Shown here one piece after another: positions 13,142-46,731 of a DNA stretch of 64,000 bases. This stretch comes from Opitutales bacterium (lineage in GTDB: Bacteria > Verrucomicrobiota > Verrucomicrobiia > Opitutales > Seribacteraceae), in the NCBI GenBank assembly GCA_028042835.1, contig JAOFOL010000006.1:1-64000 (forward strand). The letters are read 5' to 3'. The position numbers and the translations under genes are program-made. How positions within the stretch are numbered: position 1 is the first letter of the stretch; every line of letters starts with the position of its first letter. Under the pieces are notes generated by a model. That model was not told the origin of the DNA and made no database searches. It saw only the letters and a list, made by a program, of their open reading frames with translations.

Positions 13142-13144
13142 TTC
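13094..13144 (+). repeat. attL, left attachment repeat within tRNA-Cys
   Basis: 51 bp running from the anticodon stem through the CCA end and three bases beyond. It matches 35733-35783 at 50 of 51 positions; the one difference is C at 13113 against T at 35752, in the variable loop. The insertion lies downstream, so the tRNA remains complete. Confidence 0.93.
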
Positions 13145-14800: not shown

Positions 14801-14809
14801 GTCCAAGTA

Positions 14810-16405
14810 ATGAATATAACAACTAAAGAGAAACGTCAGGAATGGAACTCATTTTTCAAAGGAGATATTGATCCAAATAACATTCCTAGCAAAGAACTTA
14901 TAATCTCAAAGCTTGTTGAGAAGAGTCACATAAATGACAAAAAAAGGGTAAGAAAAGAAATTGAATCAAAAACTGAAGAATTTATCAAAGAGGCTAAGAA
15001 AGCTTGGGGTAATGATGAATTTAGCTACTCAAACACAGTTTTTTATGGAAGAGGAATAATTGTTATACATAAAGATTTTGGACCAGCTTGGCAAAGACCA
15101 GAGGCACATCTCAAAAAGATATTTCCATATGGAAACAAAGCTTTTCCTTTAAAAACAGAAAGAGAGATAGTCAGGCTCAATAAAAATGGTCTTAACACTA
15201 GAGAAATTGCGGAGAAGTTTAAAACCACTGATAGTACAATTTCGAAAGTTTTAAAGATTTATAATCAAAAACCGAAAGGGTCTAAAAAAACAACAGAAGA
15301 AGTTGAATTTGAAATAGTTTCGATGTGGGACAGAGGTGAGGTCATTAGCGATATTAAAAATGAAACAAAATTATCTCATTCAACAATTTATAAAGTCCTA
15401 GATAAACACAAGAGAAACAGGGTGGGTAAAAGAGAGAAGAAAGAGAGGCTTAATAGAAGAAAAATACCAGCTGAGATTGCAAAGGAAATAATCGAAAAAT
15501 ATACATCTGTGGAACAACCGACTATATCTTCTCTAGCACGGGAATATAATTTTTCAGGTGATTTGATTCGAGGTTGCCTTAAAAGAAGTAATATCGAAAT
15601 CCGAAAAAACTGTAAAGTTACAGACGCCGAATTTAAAATAATCGTTGAGCGTTATAAAAATGGTGAATCCTCATACAAGTTATCAGAAGATTTTGGAATA
15701 GCTCCAAGTTCGATAACTACAAGACTTCACAGAAAGAATCATAAAGTAAGAGACTCGCTTGATTACAAAAATACTGTAAACGAAGAAGATATTCCTAAAA
15801 TTATAGATTTATACAGTGTAGCAAAATTAGGTTCTTCAACGATTGCTGATCTACTTGGTTACTGGAAAAAGCAAATACTAGATATTCTTAAAGCAAATGA
15901 TATTGAGTCTGATAGATCACCCACATTTTATAGCAGATATAGCAGCCAATCAGAGAGAAAAATAATTAAAAGTATAAGAGGTGGATTAGAGAAAATATAT
16001 AAAAATAGTAAGGGTGATCATGAGAATATTTCTCTAACCGAAAAGGCTCTTAAATTTGTTGGTTGTTCGCCCAAAGAATTATTAACGCATTTGGAAGAAA
16101 CAAAACCGAAATGTGATAAAGATACCACCTTGAATTTAGATCATATAATTCCAATTTCTGCATTTGGTGAATTTATTGGAAATGAGGAAAAACTGAAAGT
16201 TTCATGCCATTACCAGAATCTTCAATTGCTGACTAAAGAGGATAACGAGGCTAAAAGTGATAGTATGGAGATCGGGCTTGAAATGTTGATGAAAAAAGAA
16301 GTTAAAGATAAAGAAGTTTACTTTATACTTGTGGAAATAGCTGAGAAGGAGATTAGAAATAAACAAAAGATTATCGCTGACATTTTGACAAAATATTCTC
16401 CTTGA
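14810..16405 (+). CDS. HNH endonuclease with tandem helix-turn-helix repeats
   Basis: Protein of 531 aa. The first 120 residues are unrecognised. Between about residues 125 and 365 there are five successive resolvase-type HTH units, the clearest reading IVRLNKNGLNTREIAEKF and IVERYKNGESSYKLSEDFG, each about 45-50 residues. The C-terminal third carries an HNH domain: LNLDHIIPISAFG near 443 and CHYQNLQLLTKEDNEAKSD near 467. It has no Cys-based zinc site. Base composition is strongly A-rich. It probably forms an operon with the preceding HNH gene. Multiple HTH units suggest recognition of a long or repeated DNA site by the nuclease; this is inference. Confidence 0.82.
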   Translation: MNITTKEKRQEWNSFFKGDIDPNNIPSKELIISKLVEKSHINDKKRVRKEIESKTEEFIKEAKKAWGNDEFSYSNTVFYGRGIIVIHKDFGPAWQRPEAHLKKIFPYGNKAFPLKTEREIVRLNKNGLNTREIAEKFKTTDSTISKVLKIYNQKPKGSKKTTEEVEFEIVSMWDRGEVISDIKNETKLSHSTIYKVLDKHKRNRVGKREKKERLNRRKIPAEIAKEIIEKYTSVEQPTISSLAREYNFSGDLIRGCLKRSNIEIRKNCKVTDAEFKIIVERYKNGESSYKLSEDFGIAPSSITTRLHRKNHKVRDSLDYKNTVNEEDIPKIIDLYSVAKLGSSTIADLLGYWKKQILDILKANDIESDRSPTFYSRYSSQSERKIIKSIRGGLEKIYKNSKGDHENISLTEKALKFVGCSPKELLTHLEETKPKCDKDTTLNLDHIIPISAFGEFIGNEEKLKVSCHYQNLQLLTKEDNEAKSDSMEIGLEMLMKKEVKDKEVYFILVEIAEKEIRNKQKIIADILTKYSP

Positions 16406-20324: not shown

Positions 20325-20810
20325 GTGATTGATTTAGACCTAAACGCGTTACTTTTTTCAACTGATGTCAGTATGGGAACTCTGTGGCGTGTTAAAGAAA
20401 GCGTTTGGAAAGACCAATTGCCTTCTTTCTATGTAGCCAAAGAAGACACAAAAATGCATCCTGGGCTTTCGATCATGCGGGCAAAAAGTGCAAGTTCAGA
20501 AATAACAGTGCCTTTGCTCCATGGGACTTCAGGAAAAAAGGGCCCTGTGGTAGTAAAGGGCATTTCAAATGAGCAAAAGTACGACGAAAACCATAAGTGC
20601 TCCTTTGGGCAAATTATTTGTCCTGCTTTTATTCCAAAAAAGAAAATGGAGGAGTTTGATCGGTCTACTACGGTTTTCGACCCAGGATTGGGGCCTAATT
20701 GGGATGCTGAATTTGATGTAATTCCAAACAGACATAAGCCACGTGTCTCCATTGACGAGAAAGAGAAGTTAGATTTGTTTTTGAAAAGGAAGATGGCAGA
20801 GGATGAGTAA
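20325..20810 (+). CDS. MazF/PemK-like barrel protein, first gene of the Lon/STAND operon
   Basis: 161 aa. The segment order GTLWRVKES (18-26), HPGLSIMR (45-52), VPLLHGTSG (62-70), GPVVVKGI (73-80) recalls the strand pattern of the PemK/MazF SH3-like barrel, but the match is weak and the RNase residues cannot be assigned with confidence. The C-terminus is charged and probably flexible. GTG at 20325 is the longest start; an ATG at residue 17 is an alternative. Its end overlaps the next gene by 8 bp. Family proteins are endoribonuclease toxins; here a regulatory or effector role within the operon is equally possible. Confidence 0.6.
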   Translation: MIDLDLNALLFSTDVSMGTLWRVKESVWKDQLPSFYVAKEDTKMHPGLSIMRAKSASSEITVPLLHGTSGKKGPVVVKGISNEQKYDENHKCSFGQIICPAFIPKKKMEEFDRSTTVFDPGLGPNWDAEFDVIPNRHKPRVSIDEKEKLDLFLKRKMAEDE

Positions 20811-21645
20811 GCTGACGAAAGAGTCTGACTGGGCAGAGTGGAAGCAAGAGTGTGCATTTGAACTTTGTAACGAAAAAGCTCAGGAGAGATTTGGCAAGTT
20901 CTGCTCGATGAGACTGTTTAACTCATCAAAAGGTTGTTCACCCAAAACTTTTTTAGAGATTTCAGAGCAATTAGGAATAGGAGGAAATGTTGATCTTAAA
21001 ATTAAGAACCAGAGAGTTTTAGCTTACTTAGATGCTCAATTTATCATTGATAAACTCGATAATAAGCAGAAGGGGAAAAAGAAGAAAATTCTTAAAGAAT
21101 GGATGATTAAAGAGAGTCCAACTCTTTCGCATATCGAGGCTACAGCTACGCATTTTATTTGGGGCTTGAGAAAGAAATTCCTTAAAGACGAAAGAGGAGC
21201 AGAGTTTTCTAATTTCTCCAAAGGAAGAAAAGTAGGAAATGAAGGACTTACTCTAGATGATTTGGCTGAGTCCAACGAACCAAACCCTGCTGATGAAATT
21301 AAATATAAAGAACTGGAAGAGGAACTTTATGCAAAGGCGAATGTGTTTTACCTTGAGCTGTCTAAAGATCGAAAGATTGCGATTTTAGCAAGATCACTAG
21401 GAATTTCCCTTAAGAATTCAATTGTGTTAGCAGCTTCTGAAAAAGGGCATTCCGTTCTTTATGAAAACCTCAAAAATGACCTGGCAGCGTTTGCTGGGAT
21501 TATTCAAAAATGTGAGGATCTTAAAAATGAGCCAACGGCCAGGCTCGAGATAGCGAGTCTACATATTTTAGGCGGAATTTCTCTAGAGTGGGCGAAAAAA
21601 ACGGAAAATGGCTGTATTGAAATCCTTAAGGTAAGTGATGACTAA
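20803..21645 (+). CDS. Sigma-70-like protein of the Lon/STAND operon
   Basis: 280 aa. A helical stretch at residues 108-135 (LSHIEATATHFIWGLRKKFL) resembles sigma region 2. It is followed by an acidic linker with LDDLAESNEPNPADE (151-165), typical between sigma regions, and by a region 4-like HTH at 187-227 (KIAILARSLGISL, then EKGHSVLYENL). The first 100 residues and last 50 are unrecognised. If it does bind RNA polymerase it could switch on the operon or redirect transcription; a divergent DNA-binding adaptor is the alternative. It overlaps the gene before by 8 bp and the gene after by several bases. Confidence 0.6.
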   Translation: MSKLTKESDWAEWKQECAFELCNEKAQERFGKFCSMRLFNSSKGCSPKTFLEISEQLGIGGNVDLKIKNQRVLAYLDAQFIIDKLDNKQKGKKKKILKEWMIKESPTLSHIEATATHFIWGLRKKFLKDERGAEFSNFSKGRKVGNEGLTLDDLAESNEPNPADEIKYKELEEELYAKANVFYLELSKDRKIAILARSLGISLKNSIVLAASEKGHSVLYENLKNDLAAFAGIIQKCEDLKNEPTARLEIASLHILGGISLEWAKKTENGCIEILKVSDD

Positions 21646-22654
21646 AAAAGAGAAAGAAATTTTCTTCAAGAAGTTAGCCTTGTGGCTGGACGATTGGGAG
21701 ATTGATCAACAGTTTCAAACTGAGAAAGAGGATGTTTTGGATGATGGGAAAAAACATGAAATTCCATATGAAGAGCCATTTTACCGAAATGTAAAACCGG
21801 GAGATGTATTACTTCTATCCAATAATTTAACGCCCAAAGAACATGGGTTGAATGGCCCCCTTTTTATAGCAGTATTGAGACTATGGGAAAAAGAAGAGGA
21901 TGAGGAGTATTTTCTTTGGGCACCTTATTCAAGTTTATCTCAACCGGCTACAGACAAGGAGCTTAAATTTGATCATACTGATGATAGGTTAGCCGTGCTT
22001 TCCCTTTGGAATGCTCATACTTCGACTAGAGACCAGCTGTCTGAATCTTGGTTTGCGGGTGAATTGAAAGATCAGGACAGGAAAGATGCATTAGGAGTAT
22101 TTTGGTACTCATTGGGGATGAAAGACCTTACGCAGAAGCTCGAGGATAAGGTTGGACCCAAGTTGTACCATGATAAAGATCCGCGCCACGAATATTTCGC
22201 GAGAGAGCTTAAAAGAACTCTGATCATTCGGGAGTTTTCATTTCAAGGTTTGCATTCTGAAACTGAAAAAGACAGTGATGCTGACGACAAAATTATCTCT
22301 TTTTCGGTATGGCAGGAAGAAGAACGTAAAGAGAGGCCAAAATTAGTGGCTGCCGATAGAAAAAGACAAAATAGATATCTTGAATTTTACAGTGAAGAGC
22401 TCCCGCTAAAGCTAATTTTTCGTTCAATCCCAAGGCATGACCAAATTATTTTTGAACTGCTTACCGATGATGAAAAGCTCAAAGATCAAATTGATGAATT
22501 CCTTATAAAGATAGAAGGGCATGAAAATCAGGAGCTTTCTTTTGAAAACGGTCAGTGCATACAGGATGCCTCTATGGACTTTCTTTCTATTTCACTGCAA
22601 TCACCTGAAGGAAAAATTTTAAAACTTAAAAGGTCAGATCCGGTAGATGAATGA
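21638..22654 (+). CDS. Hypothetical protein, third gene of the Lon/STAND operon
   Basis: 338 aa, not recognised. The N-terminal half has a strand-rich part (VKPGDVLLLSN near 54, GPLFIAVLRLWE near 73, YFLWAPYSSLSQPAT near 92) that could be a small barrel. The C-terminal part (ELSFENGQCIQDAS, then FLSISLQSPEGKIL) reads like a beta-sandwich. There is no signal peptide or membrane segment, and the protein is very acidic. ATG at 21638 is preferred over GTG at 21635. It overlaps the sigma-like gene, and its TGA overlaps the ATG of the STAND gene. Strict coupling suggests a fixed-ratio partner of the big protein. Confidence 0.65.
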   Translation: MTKKEKEIFFKKLALWLDDWEIDQQFQTEKEDVLDDGKKHEIPYEEPFYRNVKPGDVLLLSNNLTPKEHGLNGPLFIAVLRLWEKEEDEEYFLWAPYSSLSQPATDKELKFDHTDDRLAVLSLWNAHTSTRDQLSESWFAGELKDQDRKDALGVFWYSLGMKDLTQKLEDKVGPKLYHDKDPRHEYFARELKRTLIIREFSFQGLHSETEKDSDADDKIISFSVWQEEERKERPKLVAADRKRQNRYLEFYSEELPLKLIFRSIPRHDQIIFELLTDDEKLKDQIDEFLIKIEGHENQELSFENGQCIQDASMDFLSISLQSPEGKILKLKRSDPVDE

Positions 22655-25600
22655 TTTCATTAAGTGAGCAGAAATCTTTTTTAGATAGAGAGACTTTTGC
22701 ACCCGGGATTTTCTCATCTGAAACAATCCTTAAGATAGCTTTACCCAATGGTCGGCTCAGTAAAGAGGGTGCAATTACTGAGCTAATAGGGGAACTTCTT
22801 TTTCGGCAATGGTTGTTTAAAGACCAACTACCTGCAGAGCTCAAGGAGCTTATTGAACATCCGGAACTTTCAGAAGTTCGTCAGGCTCTTGACCAAGATG
22901 ATCTCGATTCTTTGGATAAGTTCAAGAAATCGAAAGACTATCTTGATGACCGAATTGAAGCTTTTGAGCGTGCGGATGGGATTATTGCACTCGTTGACTC
23001 TGATAATGAAGAAGCACTGCCGATTCCCTTTACTCTGATAAGGAATCGTCGGAGGTCTGGAGTTTGGGATAACTCAGAATTTGAGCCTCAGGAGATTGGA
23101 GTTTGGAGTGAATATCAACAGGAGATTGATGAGCTCTTGGGAACGGATATAAATTCGGTGAGATTGGAATTACCTCTTGGTCCTTATGCCGGCATGATTG
23201 AGGGGAGAAGCCTGATGCTTCCTTTGGCACTGGCAATCGCCCGAAGAAAAGACCCCACACTGCCCAAACCGATTGAAGTCTTGGCAAGTGGTGTGGTTTC
23301 AGGAGGGCGTATTGAGCAGGTCGCATATCTTAAGGAGAAGATTCTTTTGGCTAAACGAATGGGTGCCAGGATCGTGGCAGTAATGGATGAACCACCGGAT
23401 CATTCCTTCGTTCCTGAGAAGAGTGAAAAACTTACAACTTTTATGGAAAGATGGCAGACGAGATTTGGGAAGGTATTGCCTCCCATGTTGGAGTCTCATT
23501 TTGATGTATGGAGAGACCATATTTCCAATTTTAAAGGGAGGGAAAAGCTGGTTGGTCAAATTTTAAGTAGACTCAAAGATAAACATAAAGGTGGCCATGT
23601 AGCATTAGTAAGCCCGGAGGCGATGGGTAAGTCGGCATTACTCAGTTATGTGTCAAAGAGATTAAGTGATGATGCGAGAAATTCTGGCAAATATGAAGGA
23701 GCCAGGGCAATTTGCCCATGGTTGCCCGGTTGCCTGCTGCACATGGGTAAGTTTGGATCGGATCCGCACGCAGTAACTGAAAGTCTGTTGACTCAGGCCA
23801 ATGCAATGATCTCTGCTCCTGTCTCCATTCCGGAGATGCCATATAATAAAGATCCACAAAAAAATCAAAGGGAGGACGATTCTTCAGAGTTAACTCTCGA
23901 TTATCGCGAAGTATTTAGGGCTCACAGAGAAGCAATGGGCAGGGCTCTGAGGCAACTCGTCGAAAAAAGAGGTACAGTATACCTACTTATTGACGCATTG
24001 GATGAAATGACTGTGGATAGAGGGTTTCTAAGCGTATTTCCGGATTTATTTCCTGACGGTGTCCGTGTTTTGATTACAGGCAGAAATTGTGTCCAGGTTG
24101 ACAAATTTTTGGATCGGAGGGACGGGTTTAAAAAAATTGAAACGCAAAAACTGGAACGATTAGAAGTACCTGATATCAGCTGCGTGAGTGATGAAAATAA
24201 GAAAGGTAAAAGATTTAACGATCTTTTGTTCAAGAAAACTGGAGGCTGGACTTATGCTATTCATAAAGCAGGTAAAGCAGTAAGAGAAAACGAGGGTGAA
24301 TTTTCTGATGATTTAATTCAAAGTAGGGAAGAAACTCTTGATCGAATGGCAAAATGTTGGACAGGAGAAGTATTGGAAGATGCACTTGAGTTTCTTGTGA
24401 TAGAGGAATTCTTCCATTGCCTCAAAGACACTATCGAAATTAAACGATTCTTCTATTCAGATATTGCTTCTGGCGATTACCAAAATTCTTTTTATCCCAA
24501 TGTTGGCCCAAGATTCAGCGATTTATTTTCCTATCTCAAATCCAGGGGGCACAAGATTAATTTCAGGGGACTGCTCAAAGTACTTTCCCCCATTAGTGAG
24601 CAATTAGTATTTAAAACTTTTTATCCAAAAAAAAGATTTTCACTCAAAAAATTCCTAAATAGTTCGTTTATTGTTAAGGAAAAAACAGAAACCATCTCCT
24701 TTGCTCTTAGAATCTTCCCTGAATATTGTTTGGATAAGTTTTTTGGTATCGATGTAGAAGATAGTTTAGAGAAAATATGTGACTGGATGATCGAAGCCCA
24801 GAACCCTGGCCTTCTATGGAGGTTGGACTTTCTAATACATCGTTCAGAGTATTTCCATCCGACAATGTCGATTTTGCAAATTAACAATACTTGGTGGCAA
24901 ATTGGAGATAATTGTTGGTCTCAAATTATAAGAAAATGGTCTTCTGATTTAATTACAAAAATTGGTGTCGGGCAAGGTGATCACCCACCTTCACTTTGGC
25001 GAGACGCTGCTCTAGAAGTTGCGAGGCGAGGCGAGAATGGTGGTGAACAATTTGATGTGGCATGCGCTTATGCAGGATTCCATGAACATGCTTTTCTTTA
25101 TCGACTTGAATACAAGCCTTCGGAAGCAATAAGTATGCTTGATGGGATTCTGAAATCAGGTTCTAAACTAGCTTCTACAGCCGCCTTTTACATAGCTTGT
25201 ATTGAGCTAAATATAGATCCTACTGACCCTCGGGTCTTTCGAGATGCTCGGTATCTTAGACCCGGGAGAAATCGAGAGGGAAAAGATGCATTCAAAGCCT
25301 TGGCTTACTTGGAAGAATCCATCGAGATTGGGAACAAAGTAGCCGAATTATGTCTCGGAGCGATGTACTTGAATAATGATTTACCCTTTTATAATGCAAC
25401 AAAGGGAATCGAAATTTTAAAAACACTAACTAATTTAAAGGCTCCGAAAAAAGACTCGGAATTAAAAGAAGTTCAATCATGTGCAAATCAAGTTTTAGGA
25501 TGGCATTACATTGATAACGATTATGATTGCGGTCTTTTACTTTTTAAAAAAGCAATCACATGTAGTAACAATCACCAGCTAGGTATAGACTTGGTTGATC

Positions 25601-26748
25601 AATTTTCTGAAAGCTTTTATTTAGAGGGTGACAAGGATCATGAGAAATTTTTTACCGATATCCTTATTTACTCTCTTGATGCAATAAGTTGGAGTGCAAA
25701 AAAATCAGAGGTCTTAGATCGCTTAACCAAAAGACTTGTAGAAGCAGCTTTCGTGATTCCAAAAATGAGAAATCGAAAATATAGTCGTAATTCAACTTGG
25801 GGACTTTTTGGAGGATGGAATCTTCAGGAAGAAGGGGTTTTTAAAGGTGCTAATTCTTGGATATTGGTACAGGACTATGTTGTCAAATTTTGCATTAAAG
25901 GCGAATTGAGACCTAGTGGAGCTTCTGTTAAGGAAAGACTGGCACTTAAAAATGAGGAATTATTAGAAGTAGGTTTGAAAGGAATAAAAAGTAAATTTAG
26001 TTTTGCATCGGGTGAAGATTTAGAAAAAATTTTATCAATAAAATTCTTACCTTTATTAAATGTTTCTGAAACTATTCGCATTAGAGAGGAGGGAAAATCT
26101 CAAAGAGATTTTTCACATGTAGGGGAGTATACAAAATCCGCCTTAAAAACTTGGTATCAAAGAAATCAGATCAAAGGTAATAAAAAAGTTACCAAGCATA
26201 CCCGTAAAGTTCTAGAAGCTTTCGATGGTAAAGAGAAGCGACCCGGCAAAAAAATTATTGATAAAATCCACAAGCTGCAAAGCCTTTACAAAAAACAAAA
26301 GCTTTCAAAGGAGAATCAGGTTAATAGATTGTTTTATGTAAATGGTCCTGTTGCTATTTTAGAACTAATTGATTGGCTAGAATGGGAAGATTCTCAAAGT
26401 GCTCAAAATTGGCAAAAAGCCGAAAAAATCACTGAAAATCTGGCCGCAAAAGGGTTTAAGCTCAAGGATGGGTTGAGAATACCTTGGTTTGATCAGGAAA
26501 ACTGCAAGAATCCTCTTAAAACAGTCTTCGAAGATAAATTAATTGTGCGTGTAATAAAAGTGCCTGACTACAACTGGCTAGCAAGAGAGGCCCATCCTTT
26601 GTATGATTTATCTGTGGGGATGTTAGTCCGGCACGATATTTATGAAGACCCTGATGGACTTAGCCCAAAGCAGCGATTTGATATGGCGAGAAAGGGCGGA
26701 GTTAAAGTTCCCGAGTGGATGAATGATATCATAATCGAAAAAAAATAA
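22651..26748 (+). CDS. Lon-like peptidase domain fused to STAND NTPase and helical repeats
   Basis: 1365 aa. Residues 1-165 are unrecognised. Residues 170-250 resemble the Lon (S16) peptidase fold: Ser187 in EGRSLMLPLALA and Lys228 in AYLKEKILLAKRMGA match the Ser-Lys dyad, 41 residues apart (43 in E. coli Lon). A STAND/NACHT-type NTPase follows: Walker A SPEAMGKS at 321-328, Walker B LLIDALDE at 445-452, LITGR at 474-478. Beyond 550 the protein is helical, with Sel1/TPR-like units around 820-970, fitting a sensor region. No membrane segment is seen. It is the last of four overlapping genes. By analogy with STAND defence proteins, sensing of an invader by the repeats would trigger NTP-driven oligomerisation and proteolysis; this is inference. 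Confidence 0.78.
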   Translation: MISLSEQKSFLDRETFAPGIFSSETILKIALPNGRLSKEGAITELIGELLFRQWLFKDQLPAELKELIEHPELSEVRQALDQDDLDSLDKFKKSKDYLDDRIEAFERADGIIALVDSDNEEALPIPFTLIRNRRRSGVWDNSEFEPQEIGVWSEYQQEIDELLGTDINSVRLELPLGPYAGMIEGRSLMLPLALAIARRKDPTLPKPIEVLASGVVSGGRIEQVAYLKEKILLAKRMGARIVAVMDEPPDHSFVPEKSEKLTTFMERWQTRFGKVLPPMLESHFDVWRDHISNFKGREKLVGQILSRLKDKHKGGHVALVSPEAMGKSALLSYVSKRLSDDARNSGKYEGARAICPWLPGCLLHMGKFGSDPHAVTESLLTQANAMISAPVSIPEMPYNKDPQKNQREDDSSELTLDYREVFRAHREAMGRALRQLVEKRGTVYLLIDALDEMTVDRGFLSVFPDLFPDGVRVLITGRNCVQVDKFLDRRDGFKKIETQKLERLEVPDISCVSDENKKGKRFNDLLFKKTGGWTYAIHKAGKAVRENEGEFSDDLIQSREETLDRMAKCWTGEVLEDALEFLVIEEFFHCLKDTIEIKRFFYSDIASGDYQNSFYPNVGPRFSDLFSYLKSRGHKINFRGLLKVLSPISEQLVFKTFYPKKRFSLKKFLNSSFIVKEKTETISFALRIFPEYCLDKFFGIDVEDSLEKICDWMIEAQNPGLLWRLDFLIHRSEYFHPTMSILQINNTWWQIGDNCWSQIIRKWSSDLITKIGVGQGDHPPSLWRDAALEVARRGENGGEQFDVACAYAGFHEHAFLYRLEYKPSEAISMLDGILKSGSKLASTAAFYIACIELNIDPTDPRVFRDARYLRPGRNREGKDAFKALAYLEESIEIGNKVAELCLGAMYLNNDLPFYNATKGIEILKTLTNLKAPKKDSELKEVQSCANQVLGWHYIDNDYDCGLLLFKKAITCSNNHQLGIDLVDQFSESFYLEGDKDHEKFFTDILIYSLDAISWSAKKSEVLDRLTKRLVEAAFVIPKMRNRKYSRNSTWGLFGGWNLQEEGVFKGANSWILVQDYVVKFCIKGELRPSGASVKERLALKNEELLEVGLKGIKSKFSFASGEDLEKILSIKFLPLLNVSETIRIREEGKSQRDFSHVGEYTKSALKTWYQRNQIKGNKKVTKHTRKVLEAFDGKEKRPGKKIIDKIHKLQSLYKKQKLSKENQVNRLFYVNGPVAILELIDWLEWEDSQSAQNWQKAEKITENLAAKGFKLKDGLRIPWFDQENCKNPLKTVFEDKLIVRVIKVPDYNWLAREAHPLYDLSVGMLVRHDIYEDPDGLSPKQRFDMARKGGVKVPEWMNDIIIEKK

Positions 26749-27944: not shown

Positions 27945-27988
27945 TAAATTAATTGTATGGAGGGAAATTGATCAGAGTTGATTATTTA

Positions 27989-28924
27989 ATGAAAATCAGA
28001 TGCCTTTGCATCGGATTTATAGGAATTGTATGTAACACTTGTTCGGATGCTCCTCTACGAGCAAAGCTCATCAGTGATTCGGAGACCTTCAGTCCTCAAA
28101 CCAGCAATGCTGTTCCTGTAGAAAGATTAAAGATGGAGTTGGCCTTTATGGCTCTCCCCATTGAATCACTCCAGATCCGTCAGATTGGAGAGAGTCTTGA
28201 ACAGTATTTTCAAAAGAATCAAAGCCACCCTTATTGTGGATTGGCGTATGAGAACCACGATAATGGGCAGGTGAAATTACTTTTCTCGATTAATAAGGGA
28301 AAAGTATTTTCTGCAAAAGGATGGAGAATGAACGGTGAGCCTAATGAAACCTACATAAAATCTGGTAGTGGTTTTGTAATCGAAACAGATAATCCTGAAA
28401 TTGGATTTATTTATGAGAGGGGAATTCAAGCAGGGTATAAAGGTCTGACGGATAACGGAAAGACATTCAGGCAAAGTTTTATAGATGGTGAAAATATCCT
28501 TTATCATGCAAATGGTAAAAAGTGGGAGCAGGGTAGACACGAAAATGGGGTAAGGGTAGGAGTGTGGAGAGAATGGAATATCGATGGAGTTCTGGTTAAA
28601 GAGAGAAACTATTCATCCGGATATTATGATGGGGTATGTCGTGAGTGGTATGACGACGGTAAAAACCGAAGTATTTTGCACTTCTGTAATGGAAAGCTGG
28701 AAGGAATGTAGACAGAGTACGATGAGGAGGGCCACCTTACTGATATTATGGAATTCTCAAACGGATTGGCGGAGGGACTTTGGAAATCCTTTCATGATAA
28801 CGGTCAGTTAAAATTTGAGGGAACTTTTTGCAATGACCTTGAGGATGGTTGGCATATATGGAGAGACCGTTTTGGACGAATTACCAAAAGGAAATTTTTT
28901 GCCAAAGGACGCGAGGTCCATTGA
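27989..28924 (+). pseudogene. MORN-repeat (YwqK-like) protein interrupted by an amber codon
   Basis: Reading from the ATG at 27989 gives a signal-like N-terminus (CLCIGFIGIVCNTCSDAP, possibly a lipoprotein) and MORN-type repeats such as GVWREWNIDGVLVKERNY and GVCREWYDDGK. A TAG at 28709-28711 stops the frame after GKLEGM. The same frame continues for 70 codons with TEYDEEGHLTDIMEFSNGL, GLWKSFHDNGQLKFEG and ends at 28922. The TAG stands where MORN repeats have Trp (TGG), so one G-to-A change explains it. Full length would be 311 aa. An alternative start is TTG at 27968 with GGAGGG close before it. Such proteins are often called antitoxins of YwqK type; function here is unknown. Confidence 0.8.
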
Positions 28925-28935
28925 GAAAATAAGAT

Positions 28936-31900
28936 TTAAACTACAATTTCAATCAGTGGTATTTCCCAGGAAGTGAAAAGGCATTGGGATTTATATTCCT
29001 CAGCTACATCCTCAATCGATCTTTTAATGATGGCTAAAACGCGGGCTTCATGAATTGAGTCCAATCTGGTTTTCCAACGCTCGGAGGAACTCTGGGAAAG
29101 GTAAGCAATGGTTTTTTCTTCCTGGTTTGTAACGATAACCCTTTTACCTTTAGTTGTAAGTTTAACAGGTTCACCAACTTCGAGTTTCGAAATATTCATC
29201 ATTACAATCTGGTCCTTGGATCCGAGGTCTAAGTATAAATCCTTCATCCCGAGGATTTCATATTTGCGATCCAGTATGCCTCCCCAATTCTCCTTTGGTT
29301 GTATTTTCTCTCTTTGAAAAATACTGGGAGTATTGAACAAACTTTTTGAGAAAGGATTCACGGAGTCTTCAGAATCGAGTAGAACCAGATTTTCCATCGC
29401 CCGGGTCATGGCTACATAATAAAGTCTTCTTTCTTCTTCGATGTTTTTAAGTGAAGTATGCCAACCACCATCAAGGACGAAGACATTTTTAAACTCCATC
29501 CCTTTAGCACTGTGAATGGTACCGACATAAATGCCAGTTCCATTCTTTTGATCGGCTTTCAGTTGAAAGAAAGCTTCAAAAATAAAATTTATCAGGCTTT
29601 GAACCGGAAAGGTCGAGTCCCCTGTTTCCTGCCCCCAGTCGTTGATGATTTCATTGAATAGCTCTTTCCATTGGTTTCTGTCCTTGCTTAGGAAATCGCT
29701 CATTTCCTCTTTGATCTCATCAAAAGTAACCAAAGGTTCTGATCCTTTTTTGGACTCCAACTTCTTTAAAATTTCAATGCCATCCCTGACTTCCCTAAGC
29801 CTGTGGAGTGGAAAGCTTTCGTTATGACCGCAACGCCACTCTACTTGTATGTCTTTTGTTTCGAGCAATGATCTGACGGGTTCGAGCTCCTTTCTTGTTC
29901 TGCCTAGAATTGCAAAGTCCTTCCATGTGGCATCTGAGTCTAATTTTCTGAGTCTTTCGATTTCATTTAAGATAAAGCCTGGTTGGTCCCGCAAAGAATT
30001 ACAGGGAATGATTTGAACAAGACCTTCGGATAAATCATCCATGCTCTCCCACCTTCCTCCCGAAGGATATTCTTTTCGCTTATCGTTGATTCGTATTGGA
30101 TCATCGGTCTTCATACGATCCACATTTTGTGAAATCAATTCGTTTGAAGCCTGAATAATGTTTGCGGAGGATCTGTAGTTTTGGAGTAGATTATGTCTTC
30201 TGGCTTCGTAATCTGATTCAAACTTTTTGATGAACTGGGTATTGGCTCCTCGAAATTGATAGATGTTCTGGTCGTCATCACCAACTGCCAGAATGGATAG
30301 TTTTTTACTGGTCTTGAATTCATCCTCTGTTCTGAGTCTTCCGGCAATGGAGGAAACGAAGTTGTACTGATTCGAGTCAATGTCTTGATATTCATCAATG
30401 AGGATATGATTCCATCGACCGAGGATGGAATTAAGTAACTGTTCATGATCCATTCCCACGGTTTCGACCTTTCCCTCCAGGAGTTCAGTAGCCTTTGGAA
30501 TAATTTCATCAAAGTTTTTCTGATTCTCCTGATCGTCATTATTCGACTTAAACGCAAACTCAGCTGACAACCCAAGAATGCGCAAGGCAAGGGAGTGGTA
30601 AGTGCAAATGGTTATTCCATTTGCATCTCTGTCACATAAGTCCCGGATTCTTTTGCGTAGTGTCATGGCTGCTGACCGGTTATAGCAAAGCACGAGAATT
30701 GATTCCGCACGGACCCGCTCCACTCGAATGAGATACGCACAGCGATGTGCCACCGTTTTGGTTTTTCCAGAACCCGGGCCAGCTAAAATAAGCATGTTAC
30801 TTTCTTTTTCATCCGCAACAATTGCCTGCTGGAAGGGATTCTCCAGAGACTCAACAATTCGCTGAAAAGACTCGCTGGAGGTGGCTAAATTCAAAATGTC
30901 AGCACTTCCTTTGAAATGTTTTTGAACAAAGCTTTTCTTATCCATACCAAAGTAGTCGAGGACAAACCCGATAGCCCGTGCTATCTCGGATGCTCCAAGC
31001 TTTGCATATTTTTCCATTACATGGATCTGCAGATTCTTTTCCTTATAATGAACTTCCAGGGATTTGTGGTCAGCATTCGAGTATCGGCGTTTTTTAGAAT
31101 CTTCATTGAGTTCAATTCTCATGGCCTGGGTAATCAGCCCAAGGCCTCCCTTGATCTGAATGATATTCATTTCATGCAAGTATCGTAACCCATGCTCGAT
31201 AGCGGCGTGAGGATCCCGGTAGTCACTGTACATGTCTTTTGATATTGCCTCCAGTAATTCCGATTCAGTGAAATTTACCGATAGATCCATGCCCCTTTCT
31301 TTCTCCGGAATCTTCGCTGTGATCTGTTCGAGAATGAACTGTGATACCTGAAGTCTTTTTTCAGAAATCTTCCTCAAATTTGATAGGGTGGTCTGAAGAC
31401 GGATCTTGTACTGGTCCTGCCCAAGTTCCCGTGGGACAATGCTACCTTTTCCTCCTGCTAACCCGGTTCCGTCCATACGAAGCATGGTTAGGATCTTACT
31501 GAGGTTGGTTGGCAGGCACCAGGAGAAGCCCTGATGCCTGAGGACCCCCACTGCGACCCTTATGTTTAAGGGATATGATTCTCCGCTCTCTGCATCTGGG
31601 AATTCCTCCTGTAGGAGTTTGATGAAAACAGACTCCAATTCACCTAGTTTCTTAAGCTGAACATTAGAACTCTTCTCACCTTGTTTGTGAGCAAGAGTGG
31701 CTGAGTATCCAATATCCTTCTGAATAAGCTTCACCGAAGGTGAGGCCATTGTGTTTAGAATCTTGAACACTGTTCTGGTGGCATCCCCATTTGTTTTCTC
31801 AACTATCTTGGAGAGGGAGGGGATTTCGGTAAACTGTTCTAATTCAGGGTTCGTGCCCTTGGGTAGATTTAAAAATGTATGATATATATCTTGCCAGGCA

Positions 31901-34161
31901 TGTCTTTCCTCATTGGGGGCAACTTTTATAATTATTTTGATTGCCTCCTCCATATTATGAACGAGGGGTAAACCCTGGAAAACCCTGGTCTGATTTTGAT
32001 CTCTTTTGAGGAATCCTGTGTTTTCCAGATTCGAAATGGCGGTGGATACCTTTGTCCTTTTGGATGTGCCATATTCGTCATCAAAGGATGTAGTGATCTC
32101 TTCCAGTATCTGAGTGGCACTCAAAAAAGCATAAGGGGTTTTCTCAACATTGTTGGAGCTCTGTTTTTTTACACGGTAGCGAATACTTCGTAGAATATGC
32201 CTGACATCATTTTTGCTTATCCTTCCGTAAGTATCCATGGAGAACTGAGTATCTATATCTCCACCCTTACCGTCTGATCCTGGATTATAGAGCAGGACGC
32301 AGTGGGCTGGTTCTTGATCTCTTCCACCTCTCCCTGCTTCCTGAATGTAATTTTCCAGTGAACCTGGGATATCATGGTGAATGACAAGTCGGATATCTGG
32401 TTTATCCACTCCCATCCCAAACGCATTGGTTGCACAAATTACTTGAAGATCCCCGGAATTAAAGGCTTCCAGAAGTCTCCCTTTCTCCTCGGTTGCAATC
32501 CCTGCATGAAAGGGGGCAACTTCCCACTCTCTTTCCTCCAGAAATCCTGCCAGCCTCTCCACCGATGCCCTGGTGGAGCAAAAGACGACTGCGGCACCTT
32601 CTTTTCTTGATGGCAAGTGATCAAGGAGCAGTTCGTGAGCTCGAAAGGGCTTTTGTGGCTCACTCACGATACTTACATCATAGGAGAGATTACCTCTTTC
32701 AGTGCCCCCGTCCAAAAGCTCAAGACTTTGATTTAGTTCCTTTTCGAAATATTGCAGGAGCTCTTGTTTGACGTCGTTTTTTGCTGTGGCGGTAAGACAA
32801 GAAATTGGAGGAATGGGGACTCCTTGCCTTTGAGACAATTCCCTAATGAATCTTCCTGCATAGGTATAGTCAGGCCTGAAGTCATGTCCCCATTTTGATA
32901 AGCAATGAGCCTCATCAAATACCCATCTCGAAATCTGTCTTTTAGCGATGGCTTCCTTGAACCTTTTATTACGAAGTTGTTCTGGGGAAACATAAAGAAT
33001 AGCTGTATCCCCACCATGTAATCTTTCGTAAACGCCACCTCTTTCCGGGCCTGTTTGAAGCCCGTAAATTGCATCAATGGAAGAATGCATGCCCGTTTGT
33101 TTCCTGAGATTATCAACCTGGTCTTTAATGAGTGCCTGTAGAGGAGATAAGACGATTGTAAGTCCTCCACTTCTATAGTGGTTGACCAATGCCGGAATTT
33201 GAAAACACAGAGATTTACCTCCTCCGGTTGGTAGAATTGCTAGGATGGGTTGGTTTTCTAACCCAGCCTCCACAATGCTTTTTTGGAGGCTATTGCCATC
33301 GGCTGTAGCGGGTTGCATTCGGTAGGAATCAAACCCGAAGAATTTCTTAAGTTGTTTTTCTGAGGAATGGTTTTCTAAACAAAATTCGCATGAAGGATTT
33401 TCACAGGGTGTCTCTCTAAGTTTGTAAACCAAGTCTATAATGTGGGGATACTGGTAGCATACCCAGTAAGGGAGAATTGAATTGGAACCCGCAACGAGTA
33501 GCCAAGATAGGAGATAAGCATGGTAATCCTTCTTGAAGACATCATCTTCTAGCAGATTTAAAAAGGCTTGTTCACAAACTTTATCATGGAGGTATTGTTT
33601 TAATACTTCTTTGAGATCTTCATCATCAGAAAGTTTTTTGACGCCAATTCCATCGAAGAAAATATCAAGCCCCTCTTTCTCCAATTGATTTTCAGTTTCA
33701 GAGAGAATTTTTCTGTATGTTGATGCTAATTTTGGATGTTTATTATTTAATCGGGAGAGTGCATTGATCTCATCATTCAAAAGTGCATGAGCGAGTTCAC
33801 AGTCTTTAATTGGATCGCTTCTTGAATCACCTTCAAGTTTATATCCTTTAACCAGTTTATGATATGGATTTTCAGGGAAGCAGATGGGGGATAACCTGAG
33901 TGTGTCCAATACGGGTTTGGATGAAATAGGGTTTCGTGGGTCTAGGTTTCCTATGTGTTCAAGGTCGTGAGCGATAATATTGTGCCCGACTATAACCTTC
34001 GCTTTGGAAATAAAATTTCCCATTTCCTCCACGGATTGTGCGTTGACTTTCTTTCCGTGGAGTTGTGATCCATTGAGAATCGTGCCAAACTCTCGAATTA
34101 GACCGCTGTCGGTAATTTCAAGATCGAAAAATGCGTAATCTTCGAACCTACTACTCATCAA
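28936..34161 (-). CDS. DEDD exonuclease-RecQ helicase-UvrD helicase fusion
   Basis: A 1741-aa nuclease/double-helicase protein. Residues 1-130: DEDD-type 3'-5' exonuclease with FFDLE (Asp13, Glu15), GHNIIAHD (Asp66) and SDPIKDCELA (Asp116/120). Residues 250-262 hold a Cys cluster (CENPSCEFC). Residues 275-650: RecQ-type SF2 helicase with PTGGGKS at 311-317, DEAH at 416-419, HDFRPDY, ATNAFGMGVDKPDIR and QEAGRGGRD. After winged-helix-like regions, residues about 1110-1640 form a UvrD-type SF1 helicase: GPGSGKT near 1127, DEYQD near 1255, GDDDQNIYQFRGA near 1287, HSAKGMEF and YYVAMTRA. It is not the housekeeping RecQ, which lies at 44920. DNA unwinding with degradation suggests defence against foreign DNA or a role in element replication. 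It lies 82 bp after the integrase stop side. Confidence 0.88.
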   Translation of the reverse strand: MMSSRFEDYAFFDLEITDSGLIREFGTILNGSQLHGKKVNAQSVEEMGNFISKAKVIVGHNIIAHDLEHIGNLDPRNPISSKPVLDTLRLSPICFPENPYHKLVKGYKLEGDSRSDPIKDCELAHALLNDEINALSRLNNKHPKLASTYRKILSETENQLEKEGLDIFFDGIGVKKLSDDEDLKEVLKQYLHDKVCEQAFLNLLEDDVFKKDYHAYLLSWLLVAGSNSILPYWVCYQYPHIIDLVYKLRETPCENPSCEFCLENHSSEKQLKKFFGFDSYRMQPATADGNSLQKSIVEAGLENQPILAILPTGGGKSLCFQIPALVNHYRSGGLTIVLSPLQALIKDQVDNLRKQTGMHSSIDAIYGLQTGPERGGVYERLHGGDTAILYVSPEQLRNKRFKEAIAKRQISRWVFDEAHCLSKWGHDFRPDYTYAGRFIRELSQRQGVPIPPISCLTATAKNDVKQELLQYFEKELNQSLELLDGGTERGNLSYDVSIVSEPQKPFRAHELLLDHLPSRKEGAAVVFCSTRASVERLAGFLEEREWEVAPFHAGIATEEKGRLLEAFNSGDLQVICATNAFGMGVDKPDIRLVIHHDIPGSLENYIQEAGRGGRDQEPAHCVLLYNPGSDGKGGDIDTQFSMDTYGRISKNDVRHILRSIRYRVKKQSSNNVEKTPYAFLSATQILEEITTSFDDEYGTSKRTKVSTAISNLENTGFLKRDQNQTRVFQGLPLVHNMEEAIKIIIKVAPNEERHAWQDIYHTFLNLPKGTNPELEQFTEIPSLSKIVEKTNGDATRTVFKILNTMASPSVKLIQKDIGYSATLAHKQGEKSSNVQLKKLGELESVFIKLLQEEFPDAESGESYPLNIRVAVGVLRHQGFSWCLPTNLSKILTMLRMDGTGLAGGKGSIVPRELGQDQYKIRLQTTLSNLRKISEKRLQVSQFILEQITAKIPEKERGMDLSVNFTESELLEAISKDMYSDYRDPHAAIEHGLRYLHEMNIIQIKGGLGLITQAMRIELNEDSKKRRYSNADHKSLEVHYKEKNLQIHVMEKYAKLGASEIARAIGFVLDYFGMDKKSFVQKHFKGSADILNLATSSESFQRIVESLENPFQQAIVADEKESNMLILAGPGSGKTKTVAHRCAYLIRVERVRAESILVLCYNRSAAMTLRKRIRDLCDRDANGITICTYHSLALRILGLSAEFAFKSNNDDQENQKNFDEIIPKATELLEGKVETVGMDHEQLLNSILGRWNHILIDEYQDIDSNQYNFVSSIAGRLRTEDEFKTSKKLSILAVGDDDQNIYQFRGANTQFIKKFESDYEARRHNLLQNYRSSANIIQASNELISQNVDRMKTDDPIRINDKRKEYPSGGRWESMDDLSEGLVQIIPCNSLRDQPGFILNEIERLRKLDSDATWKDFAILGRTRKELEPVRSLLETKDIQVEWRCGHNESFPLHRLREVRDGIEILKKLESKKGSEPLVTFDEIKEEMSDFLSKDRNQWKELFNEIINDWGQETGDSTFPVQSLINFIFEAFFQLKADQKNGTGIYVGTIHSAKGMEFKNVFVLDGGWHTSLKNIEEERRLYYVAMTRAMENLVLLDSEDSVNPFSKSLFNTPSIFQREKIQPKENWGGILDRKYEILGMKDLYLDLGSKDQIVMMNISKLEVGEPVKLTTKGKRVIVTNQEEKTIAYLSQSSSERWKTRLDSIHEARVLAIIKRSIEDVAEEYKSQCLFTSWEIPLIEIVV

Positions 34162-34243: not shown

Positions 34244-35572
34244 TTAATACGCTTTTTCTTTGAGAAGGGAAGATGTCTCAATTTTTGATAGCTTTCGGTT
34301 TTCAACATAGATTTGGCTGGTTATTCGTATGTCACTGTGTCTTGCAAAACTGCTTGCTGCATGGATACCATGTTGATCTGCAATTATTGATGTGGCTTCC
34401 TGGCGAAGTGTGTGAATAGGTTTCTGGGATTTCACTCCATGTTTCCTCAACCATTTACAAAGTTGTTTGAACAAGTAGCCGCATCGATAGGAACCTGCCT
34501 TGCGAGAATCAGAGTTCCTCCTGGATATCGAAACAACAAATTTTCCCTTACTTTTTCGTTTTAGCTTTTTCAACTGATTTACAGTGAACTCATCGATGGC
34601 AATCAGATTTTCCGATTCCGCTGACTTAAGCTCATAATCAGTGGATGCTTGGACATAGATGAGCTTTTGTTTGAAGTCGATGTGGTCCCATTGTAACCAA
34701 TCGATTTCCTTTCTTCTTAACCCGCTCACTGCAGCTATGAGGAAGACTTTGTACAATTCCGGTTTGCTTGGAAGCAGTTCGTTTTGAGCTAGTTTAAAAA
34801 GTTTTCCAAGATCCATTCCCGCTCGCTGGGCATCGTATTTTCTGATCCTAACCTTCTCCTGGCTCACATCCTCAAATGGATCATGAGGAATGATGAGCCT
34901 CCCTTTAAGAGTTCTTTTACCACTGCGATCGTAAGCATGCTTGCTACCACCAATTTCAGCCGCAACAAAAACTATATTATTAGCTGAAAACAAACTTTTG
35001 GAATTTCGAATGATTGAATTCACAGTTTGAACCCGAGCTCTTTTTTCTTCCTCGTTTCGTGCTTTTGAGATGTATTTCTTTTTCCAAGTCATTATTTTGG
35101 CAGGGGTTAGCTCAGAGAGCATAACCTTGTTAACCTTTTTTCTGAGGGCTAAATTCCCTTTACCCACTCTTGTTTCTTCGTGCTTGAGGCCACATGCTTC
35201 GGCTATGAGTCGCCGGAATTTCTTCTTGTATGAGTATAGTGTATCAGGTTTGAGAGTGGTTTTATCCCTGATTTCATTTAAGAAAATCTCAACGGTCGGA
35301 GATTCCACTTTCTGCTCACCCTTTGGCTTGTACTTTTCAAGGGTCGGCTCCCAACCATTAAGCTCTCGAAACAAAAAAATCTCTCTAGCCTTTCTCGCTG
35401 CCTCATCCTTGTTGCCAGTTCCCAGACCGAAAGTGTGTCTTTGGAAATACTCTGAAAATCTGACTGAGTAATCACTTTGTTTGAACTTCTTTCCTTTGTA
35501 GGTGTAAGTGTTGAAAAACACCTTGGTTTTCCAGTAGCGGTAATCGCTTTTCGAATATCTGATTCCAGGCAT
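34244..35572 (-). CDS. int: Tyrosine recombinase/integrase of the element
   Basis: 442 aa from the ATG at 35572; a TTG at 35629 would extend it through the arm-type repeats. The catalytic set is visible: Arg286 (SGLRRKE), His387 and Arg390 (HTLRQE), His412 (ARHSD), Tyr422 (SQIYVENR). A SAM-like core-binding domain lies around residues 80-190, and the N-terminal 70 residues probably bind arm sites. The gene is at the right end, about 160 bp from attR, and is transcribed toward the element interior. No Shine-Dalgarno sequence is seen. The repeats overlapping its promoter suggest that integrase represses its own expression. Confidence 0.95.
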   Translation of the reverse strand: MPGIRYSKSDYRYWKTKVFFNTYTYKGKKFKQSDYSVRFSEYFQRHTFGLGTGNKDEAARKAREIFLFRELNGWEPTLEKYKPKGEQKVESPTVEIFLNEIRDKTTLKPDTLYSYKKKFRRLIAEACGLKHEETRVGKGNLALRKKVNKVMLSELTPAKIMTWKKKYISKARNEEEKRARVQTVNSIIRNSKSLFSANNIVFVAAEIGGSKHAYDRSGKRTLKGRLIIPHDPFEDVSQEKVRIRKYDAQRAGMDLGKLFKLAQNELLPSKPELYKVFLIAAVSGLRRKEIDWLQWDHIDFKQKLIYVQASTDYELKSAESENLIAIDEFTVNQLKKLKRKSKGKFVVSISRRNSDSRKAGSYRCGYLFKQLCKWLRKHGVKSQKPIHTLRQEATSIIADQHGIHAASSFARHSDIRITSQIYVENRKLSKIETSSLLKEKAY

Positions 35573-35579
35573 GTTAAAA

Positions 35580-35614
35580 TGGCCAAGAATTATTCTTGGC
35601 CAATTCTTGGCCAC
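35580..35614 (+). promoter_or_regulatory. Right arm-type repeats (putative integrase sites / int operator)
   Basis: Two direct copies of TTCTTGGCCA (35593-35602 and 35604-35613) spaced 11 bp, plus an inverted copy TGGCCAAGAA (35580-35589). They match the doublet at 13211-13231 and lie directly upstream of the int ATG, so they may serve both as arm sites and as an operator. Confidence 0.6.
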
Positions 35615-35732
35615 TTTTTGTGTTCTCAAGTGTTTTCATCTGAATATTTAAATGAAGCTAAAGCTCAGTAAATATCAAGATAAATCTTTGATCTTCAGCG
35701 CATTTCAGAACATCTGGGGACAAATAAATAGA

Positions 35733-35783
35733 GGACTGCAAATCCTCTATTTGCCGGTTCGATTCCGGCCCGCGCCTCCATTC
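35733..35783 (+). repeat. attR, right attachment repeat (tRNA-Cys 3' fragment)
   Basis: 51-bp copy of the 3' part of tRNA-Cys, differing at one base from attL. It has no 5' half and cannot form a tRNA. It marks the right end of the element and, after excision, the junction restored to chromosome. Confidence 0.93.
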
Positions 35784-44919: not shown

Positions 44920-46731
44920 CTAGCTCGCGAGAATAACATCCAGTAATGTCTGGCCAAACTTTTTCAGTTTTGATTCTCCGATGCCGTTAATTTCAAGCAT
45001 CTCGTCCAAACTTTGGGGTTTCGCCTTTGCGAGTTCAATCAGAGTTTTGTCGTGAAAGATAACATAAGCAGGAACCCTTCGTGTCTTTGCCATTTTCTGC
45101 CTGGCAGATTTTAAATTTTCATAGAGAGATTTATCTTCATCAAGATCAAGTGCGACTTTGGTTCTTCTAGAGTTCTTCTTTTTGCTTTCTTTTGCCTTCT
45201 CTGTGATCTTACGGAAATGGATCGATTCCTTCTTTTTTAGAAATGCAAAGCCTTTATCCGTAATTTTGATTCCATTATGTTCATTTACATCTACCCGAAG
45301 CAGGTTACGGGAGACCAATTGTCGGAAAACATTTTGCCACTCGGGTTTACTTGATTCTTTTCCTATCCCAAAAGTACTCTGTTGGTCATGTCCAAAACGA
45401 ATAATACGGTCATCTTCCTTTCCGATTAATACATCCACCACATATACCATCCCAAACCGTTGCCCTGTTCTATAAACCGCGGACAATGCCATTTGAGCAG
45501 GAATGGTACCATCAAATGTTTCGGGTTTTGCATCACAGGTGTCGCAATTTCCACACGGTTCTCCTGTATCGTCAAAATATTCCAGTAATACCTGCCTTCG
45601 ACAAATCGCTGCTTCACATAAGCCAAGCAAAGCATTTAATTTTTGGTGCTCAATTCGCTTTTGGATCTCAGCGGCTTCTGAGTTTTCGATCCAGCTACGC
45701 TGCATCGCTGCATCATCCATCCCAAATATCATAAAGGCATTTGAGGGCAGTCCGTCACGTCCGGCACGCCCAGTCTCCTGATAGTAAGCCTCAATTGACT
45801 TGGGTATATTCATATGGGCAACATATCGTACATCCGGCTTATCAATCCCCATACCGAAAGCTATGGTGGCCACCATGATAATGTTATCTTCTCGCAAAAA
45901 AAGATCCTGATTTGCACTCCTTGCTTCGGCAGACATACCGGCATGATAGGGCAGGGCATTGATTCCCTTTTTCTGCAACCAGTCTGCCATATCATCTACT
46001 TTTTTTCGGGAGATGCAGTAAATAATACCACTGTCACCCGCATGATTATTCACGATGAAGTCATGCACTTGTTTTTTTGGATTATTTCTTTCCACAATGG
46101 AATAGTGAATGTTTGGCCGGTCGAAGCCTCCAATAAAAGTCTTTCCTTTTTCCAACTTTAAACGCTCAATGATGTCCTTACGAGTCGCTCGGTCCGCTGT
46201 GGCTGTCAGGGCGATCCGTGGAATACCCTTGAATCTTTCTGCGAGGAAAGAAAGTGCTGTATAATCTGGACGGAAGTCATGTCCCCACTGAGATACGCAA
46301 TGAGCTTCATCGATAGCGAATAAGGCAATATTGACTGTATCTAGTAGATCAAGGAATTCAGGCATAACCAATCTTTCAGGAGCTACATAGAGTAAGTCTA
46401 ATTGATTGCTTTCAAGCTTTTGCTTTACCTGAAAGACATTCGAGTGAGACATGCCTGAATTGATCGCACCAGCAGCGATTCCCCATTGGGCAAGTGCCGT
46501 TATCTGATCCTGCATCAGTGCAATTAATGGAGATACAATGACTCCCACCCCTTCACGGCAAAGAGCTGGTATTTGGTAGCATAGTGACTTTCCGCTTCCC
46601 GTAGGCATCAGTACAAAAGAACTACCCCCAGCAACTAGATGCTCTATTATCTCGGCCTGTTGTCCGCGGAATTGATCATACCCATATGTATGCTTTAAAA
46701 TGCTAAGCGGATTTTTGGTTGCTGAGTACAC
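44920..46731 (-). CDS. recQ: ATP-dependent DNA helicase RecQ (housekeeping)
   Basis: 603 aa, 3'-5' helicase for recombination repair. Walker A is in MPTGSGKSLCYQ near residue 40, DEAH in IDEAHCVSQWGHDFRPDY near 137, and QETGRAGRDG near 318 closes the helicase core. The zinc-binding Cys set is in CEAAICRRQ, CGNCDTC near 375-400. A C-terminal HRDC domain (LAKAKPQSLDEMLEINGIG) ends the protein. GTG at 46731 is the likely start; no Shine-Dalgarno sequence is seen. It differs from the element-borne RecQ fusion by having both zinc and HRDC parts. Confidence 0.96.
   Translation of the reverse strand: MYSATKNPLSILKHTYGYDQFRGQQAEIIEHLVAGGSSFVLMPTGSGKSLCYQIPALCREGVGVIVSPLIALMQDQITALAQWGIAAGAINSGMSHSNVFQVKQKLESNQLDLLYVAPERLVMPEFLDLLDTVNIALFAIDEAHCVSQWGHDFRPDYTALSFLAERFKGIPRIALTATADRATRKDIIERLKLEKGKTFIGGFDRPNIHYSIVERNNPKKQVHDFIVNNHAGDSGIIYCISRKKVDDMADWLQKKGINALPYHAGMSAEARSANQDLFLREDNIIMVATIAFGMGIDKPDVRYVAHMNIPKSIEAYYQETGRAGRDGLPSNAFMIFGMDDAAMQRSWIENSEAAEIQKRIEHQKLNALLGLCEAAICRRQVLLEYFDDTGEPCGNCDTCDAKPETFDGTIPAQMALSAVYRTGQRFGMVYVVDVLIGKEDDRIIRFGHDQQSTFGIGKESSKPEWQNVFRQLVSRNLLRVDVNEHNGIKITDKGFAFLKKKESIHFRKITEKAKESKKKNSRRTKVALDLDEDKSLYENLKSARQKMAKTRRVPAYVIFHDKTLIELAKAKPQSLDEMLEINGIGESKLKKFGQTLLDVILAS

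Follow-up and report, generated by a model that had tools for sequence, protein, structure and literature searches.

A mobile exonuclease-RecQ-UvrD fusion with a predicted helicase-nuclease function in an Opitutales bacterium

Background

Helicase-nucleases decide between the repair and the destruction of foreign or broken DNA. On which side does a protein stand that joins a 3'-5' exonuclease to both a RecQ and a UvrD motor? Such a chain is hidden in the databases under the ordinary name of a RecQ helicase. If it acts in defence, it would be a one-gene system missed by current tools; if it acts in repair, it would be an equivalent of WRN or DinG that moves between genomes. We analyzed a representative encoded in a 64,000-nucleotide stretch of an Opitutales genome (contig JAOFOL010000006.1, positions 1 to 64,000, henceforth referred to as the window) together with its relatives in genomes, plasmids and viral records. 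The best reading of the combined evidence is a self-contained, horizontally exchanged helicase-nuclease without a fixed partner.

One gene encodes an exonuclease and two helicase cores

The 1741-amino-acid protein listed at 28936-34161 in an initial annotation corresponds to one exact, intact open frame of 1741 codons. It lies on the minus strand, which the annotation had left unstated, and the plus strand across the same interval has stops throughout. The listed start is a TTG and the following codon is an ATG, so translation probably begins at the ATG at 34158. In 77 of the 81 family copies that we fetched, the frame is open over the whole match.

The annotation had proposed that an exonuclease, a RecQ helicase and a UvrD helicase are joined in one chain, and this holds: Pfam recovers the two helicases, whereas the exonuclease is recovered from an AlphaFold model and its structural matches. 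The order along the chain is DEDD exonuclease, a helical linker with a Cys3His cluster, RecQ core, winged-helix-like modules and UvrD core. The Pfam matches DEAD (residues 291-465), Helicase_C (511-615), UvrD-helicase (two stretches, the best at 1108-1200) and UvrD_C (best at 1519-1594) are all well above the cut-off.

To assess conservation, we aligned 75 proteins, namely the window protein and those from 74 of the 81 family loci; seven loci were left out where the called protein was shorter than 1650 amino acids. The GTDB loci are the best 80 of 374 matching stretches, and near relatives are over-represented among them. Full-length relatives are 38-43% identical to the window protein. The cysteine cluster that had been noticed between the exonuclease and RecQ parts (33367-33405, minus strand) stands out in this alignment: C253, C258 and C261 are present in 75/75 proteins and H265 in 68/75. 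The cluster probably binds zinc.

The RecQ-type SF2 core comprises residues 270-628 (32278-33354, minus strand) and was delimited with DpdF and RecQ profiles and RecQ structures. It has the Walker A motif, the DEAH box and the aromatic-rich loop of a RecQ-type SF2 helicase, and it scores 275.7 bits with TIGR00614, the NCBIfam RecQ family (cut-off 219.8). RecQ structures in the PDB match residues 293-628, with RecQ, BLM, RECQ5 and WRN among the matches, and those to RecQ, BLM and WRN end at 626-629. Beyond the core, we found no Pfam match to the RecQ zinc, RQC or HRDC domains up to an E-value of 1, and the only cysteines between residues 600 and 1110 are C621 and C882. These parts are missing from some RecQ-family proteins. 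The SF2 core therefore counts as RecQ-family and not as a complete RecQ. The protein falls far under the NCBIfam equivalog cut-offs for RecQ, UvrD, PcrA and Rep.

Between the two motors, residues ~650-1060 (30982-32214, minus strand) are modeled as several winged-helix-like modules (residues 622-1100, mean pLDDT 82.9). Structural matches to winged-helix proteins are weak (best Z 8.2). For residues 622-1100, a sequence search of the PDB found nothing at E ≤ 1 and Foldseek gave nothing significant; the model thus hints weakly at a winged-helix region. The UvrD-type SF1 core follows at residues ~1098-1600 (29362-30870, minus strand). It carries the GxGKT, DEYQD, GDDDQ and VAMTRA motifs of the UvrD/Rep/PcrA helicases, and PF00580 and PF13361 are both above their cut-offs.

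We examined whether any of the three parts has lost essential motifs. In the RecQ part, the Walker A lysine K316 and the DEAH box at 416-419 are conserved in 75/75 proteins and W424 in 74/75. In the UvrD part, K1133, DEYQD (1256-1260) and GDDDQ (1294-1298) are all conserved in 75/75. The four exonuclease acids are kept as well (D13 in 74/75 with one gap; E15, D66 and D120 in 75/75). No domain thus shows the loss of an essential motif in the 75 proteins, although the usual DEDD histidine or tyrosine is not in place. Since active-site residues of all three engines are kept at 38-43% identity, the exonuclease, RecQ and UvrD activities all appear to be under selection.

The exonuclease has an atypical active site

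The DEDD exonuclease domain (residues ~9-140; 33742-34137, minus strand) is hardly visible in sequence comparisons. The window protein matches RNase_T with an E-value of 0.008, which is below the Pfam cut-off, and only 2/30 family members match it at E ≤ 0.1. A PDB search with a 30-row profile of the exonuclease gave chance matches at the top (amyloid precursor, E 0.07), whereas a shorter profile placed DinG first with an E-value of 0.055. Structural comparison was therefore needed. The AlphaFold model of residues 1-300 has a mean pLDDT of 90.2, and its best structural match is Staphylococcus aureus DinG (Z 13.8 over 229 residues, rmsd 4.7), spanning residues 3-259 of the fusion protein. Comparisons of the same model with DnaQ, ExoI, Pol II and oligoribonuclease gave Z scores of 10-12, and Foldseek alone gave a best E-value of 0.002. 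The domain has the four acidic residues of the DEDD (DnaQ-like) exonucleases, D13, E15, D66 and D120, in an RNase H-like fold.

DEDD exonucleases have a catalytic histidine five residues before the last aspartate (DEDDh) or a tyrosine four residues before it (DEDDy). Neither is present in any of the 75 aligned proteins. The position five before D120 is N in 54, S in 16 and A in 5 proteins; the position four before it is D in 55, N in 15, S in 2, H in 2 and K in 1. Because the usual residue is replaced in all 75 proteins, the exonuclease is atypical, and it either uses another base or has changed its function. Three residues that are invariant in the alignment, Y100, H101 and K105, could provide the catalytic base. 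The adjoining residues 106-110 are the least confident stretch of the model.

The family is patchy and exchanged between lineages

Similar fusions had been anticipated in databases, and we did find full-length relatives in GTDB genomes and in plasmid records. In the GTDB genomes, 374 stretches encode a relative, and the best 80 of these match over nearly the full length; many of the 374 may share the helicase core only. Full-length relatives occur across many phyla. Among 72,556 plasmid records, 20 cover 80% or more of the query at a single location, and the full-length relatives in these records (~1700 amino acids) carry no more specific name than "RecQ family ATP-dependent DNA helicase". We found no full-length copy among 50,697 phage records and one contig with a full-length copy in IMG/VR. 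The IMG/VR copy (L081:6726-9965) adjoins genes that look by eye like a repressor and a Mu-like transposase, and may border a Mu-like prophage or be part of one.

Within lineages, the distribution is patchy. The gene is carried by 0/56 close relatives of the window's genome, by 16/387 genomes of the phylum (the window's genome included) and by 45/151 Methylococcaceae, where the 20 copies examined lie mostly at different sites. The suggestion that it is not a housekeeping gene is borne out by these counts. The separate RecQ gene at 44920-46731 is located outside the element that carries the fusion. In a family tree, 18 changes are required for 8 groups, compared with a minimum of 7 and a mean of 32.8 after shuffling; this is a quick FastTree in which the window protein sits on a long branch, so phyla are seen to be mixed and the placement of the window is not safe. 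The mixing of phyla is consistent with repeated transfer added to some vertical descent.

We also considered whether the fusion replaces RecBCD. RecB was detected in 145/151 Methylococcaceae (44/45 carriers and 101/106 non-carriers) and in the window's genome. We dropped this candidate because nearly all Methylococcaceae carriers, and the window's genome, have RecB.

The window copy is carried by an integrated element

The window copy had been assigned to a mobile element, and we could delimit that element. It is a 22.6-kb insertion in a tRNA-Cys gene, bounded by 51-bp direct repeats and encoding a tyrosine integrase. The first att repeat (13094-13144, plus strand) lies over the 3' part of the tRNA-Cys gene (13067-13141) and the second (35733-35783, plus strand) marks the opposite end; the two differ by one mismatch. 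The integrase gene (34244-35629, minus strand; Phage_integrase E 2.6e-11, phrog_1) adjoins the second repeat; it has the same orientation as the fusion gene and precedes it by 82 bp. Promoter and terminator sites in the gap between these two genes were no commoner than in shuffled sequence. A DnaG-like primase, a phage-type helicase and an SSB-like protein are also encoded on the element.

We searched for homologues of the other element proteins among the neighbours at the 81 family loci and at 20 additional Methylococcaceae loci (five places are counted twice in these sets) and found none at E ≤ 1e-4. Since these proteins do not accompany the relatives, the fusion gene looks like cargo and not like a fixed module of the element.

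Several other genes of the element were noted. A four-gene cluster at 20325-26748 (plus strand) encodes a 1365-amino-acid protein, at 22651, whose N-terminal stretch resembles a Lon-type protease by eye and is followed by a STAND-like NTPase (AAA_16 and NPHP3_N slightly under the Pfam cut-off), and a 280-amino-acid protein, at 20803, that looks sigma-factor-like by eye and has no convincing Pfam match. This cluster may be a protease-type defence operon. At 13679-16405 (plus strand), two adjacent proteins have HNH-like C-terminal stretches by eye, and the second has repeated helix-turn-helix segments (NCBIfam Cbp1, E 1.2e-12, under the cut-off). A further protein, encoded at 27953-28711 (plus strand) in the interval that separates the fusion gene from the SSB-like gene, has short repeats that resemble the MORN type by eye.

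Relatives have no fixed partner and weak linkage to defence genes

No neighbour proved to be conserved across the 81 loci, many of which have short flanks (three or more called genes are available upstream in 46 and downstream in 45), and we found no fixed partner across the 20 Methylococcaceae loci. Among the 20 Methylococcaceae copies, one site is common to four genomes and another to three, two further copies have a pair of nearby genes in common and the remaining copies differ in their surroundings. The genes nearby are mostly ordinary ones, for example gyrB, thyA, htpG and pyrD (named from their sequences by reading). With its patchy occurrence, mostly differing sites and lack of a fixed partner, the family is accessory. 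Universal placement in repair operons, which would have counted against the initial interpretation, is not seen at the 20 Methylococcaceae loci.

Linkage to defence islands had been proposed, and we assessed it in several ways. At the 81 loci and the 20 Methylococcaceae loci, we did not find partner genes of Gabija, PsyrTA or Dpd beside the helicase. PADLOC has no model of the whole architecture, and the best models for the fusion are the single-core DpdF, PsyrT and GajB. At E ≤ 1e-15, 120 PADLOC models were matched by 147 neighbours compared with 20 by 150 control genes, figures that count models and not genes, so that one restriction enzyme can match many. Two long genes were left out of the neighbour set, which leaves 147 of 149; from the control set, four genes were left out for their length and eight because their loci were short, which leaves 150 of 162. 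Each genome contributed control regions from a single place (contig C3 in 37/40), and of the 40 regions planned, 14 were absent or did not reach 5 kb. When 10 selected neighbours were scanned protein by protein, the matches were a type I restriction-like protein, a type IIG/ISP restriction enzyme and one PDC-S03 candidate; the other seven gave nothing.

Within 20 kb, HSDR_N (E ≤ 1e-12) was found near 4/55 copies compared with 0.91 expected (P 0.014), and N6_Mtase (E ≤ 1e-65) near 4/55 compared with 0.83 expected (P 0.010). When shared sites are counted once, these become two sites for HSDR_N (P 0.23) and three for N6_Mtase (P 0.05), and the N6_Mtase sites are largely the same as the HSDR_N sites. 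A looser cut-off places HSDR_N near 5/55 copies. WYL regulators are not enriched near the 55 copies (1 seen, 0.69 expected). The excess of restriction genes is owed partly to three Methylococcaceae with one common site. In L160, L161 and L166, all from Methylococcaceae, the gene has one shared site near type I restriction R-like and HipA-like genes.

For the plasmids, we opened 14 matches, 12 of which are annotated around the gene and two of which have no annotation there. In 2/12, the gene is near classical defence genes (type I-D CRISPR in one and type I restriction in the other); in one of the 12, its neighbours are a WYL regulator and a large helicase operon, and toxin-antitoxin genes occur in four other annotated plasmids. 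No common partner was found across the 12 contexts. Overall, the proposed linkage proved weak once shared sites were counted once: it is a hint, slightly above chance, and not proof.

Predicted function

Motors of the RecQ and UvrD types travel along single strands in the 3'-5' direction, and exonucleases of the DinG type digest DNA from its 3' ends. Given these polarities, we propose that the fusion protein would load wherever single strands are exposed, be it at ends, gaps or forks, that one or both motors would then unwind the duplex and that the exonuclease would degrade the freed 3' strand. Its targets could be phage or plasmid DNA entering the cell, in which such structures are more exposed than in host DNA. 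The exonuclease of Bacillus subtilis DinG is reported to trim 3' ends on single strands (PMC12525004), and a nuclease-helicase acting on linear DNA that lacks RecBCD protection has a precedent in Gabija (PMC12407980).

Our tentative prediction, slightly favoured over the repair of forks or ends, is that attack on incoming phage or plasmid DNA is the selected benefit, because the family is patchy and mobile and restriction genes are mildly in excess nearby. A fuller version is possible but rather doubtful: a one-gene immune machine, spread on integrative elements, plasmids and chromosomes, in which a DinG-like exonuclease with an unusual site and two motors of different superfamilies would recognise exposed ends or gaps in incoming DNA and digest it, needing neither partner nor guide.

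The chief alternative is only slightly less likely: an accessory repair enzyme, a bacterial protein functionally analogous to DinG or WRN, that would resolve stalled forks or process damaged ends and be exchanged as a stress aid with no role in defence. The exonuclease is structurally closest to DinG, which is reported to act in replication stress (PMC12525004), the RecQ core matches the structures of RecQ, BLM, RECQ5 and WRN, and the chromosomal neighbours are mostly ordinary genes. However, the family is very patchy even among close relatives, its loci present neither a repair operon nor a fixed partner, and the hosts already have RecB, as the Methylococcaceae carriers and the window's genome illustrate.

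It is improbable that the exonuclease is catalytically dead and only binds 3' ends or single strands, which would make the protein a double helicase. Such a loss would account for the missing histidine or tyrosine, and the low confidence of the model at 106-110 leaves room for it, whereas the retention of all four acids and the invariant Y100, H101 and K105, which could supply a base, argue against it. Very improbable is a role in the replication or maintenance of the element itself, including the processing of its own forks that the initial annotation had entertained: the gene does lie beside the integrase on an element with a primase, a helicase and an SSB-like protein, but those other proteins have no homologues beside the relatives and the examined Methylococcaceae copies sit among ordinary chromosomal genes.

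Comparison with known systems

We compared the self-contained helicase-nuclease favoured here with known machines of similar composition. In the freely accessible literature that we searched, we found no description of an exonuclease-RecQ-UvrD fusion. Gabija (GajA-GajB) and PsyrTA resemble it in part, GajB corresponding to the UvrD part and PsyrT to the RecQ part. Unlike these systems, the fusion is one chain, no OLD nuclease or antitoxin partner was found for it and no PADLOC model describes it. RecBCD, AddAB and AdnAB are machines that combine motors with a nuclease of the PD-(D/E)XK fold on DNA ends. They share with the fusion the joining of motor and nuclease, whereas they differ in the nuclease fold and in having several subunits, and the SF1 core alone is common to both.

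The closest likenesses are to WRN and to the DinG of Firmicutes. In WRN, a DEDD exonuclease is placed ahead of a RecQ core; the fusion has the same order, and WRN helicase structures match its residues 293-629. It differs from WRN in having no Pfam match to the RecQ zinc, RQC or HRDC domains and in the addition of a UvrD motor. DinG of S. aureus and B. subtilis likewise begins with a DEDD exonuclease that is followed by a helicase, but that helicase is a single one of the XPD type (SF2), whereas the fusion has a RecQ core, winged-helix-like modules and a UvrD core. The sequences are already public under the name of their RecQ core, and the fusion is a variant of the helicase-nucleases.
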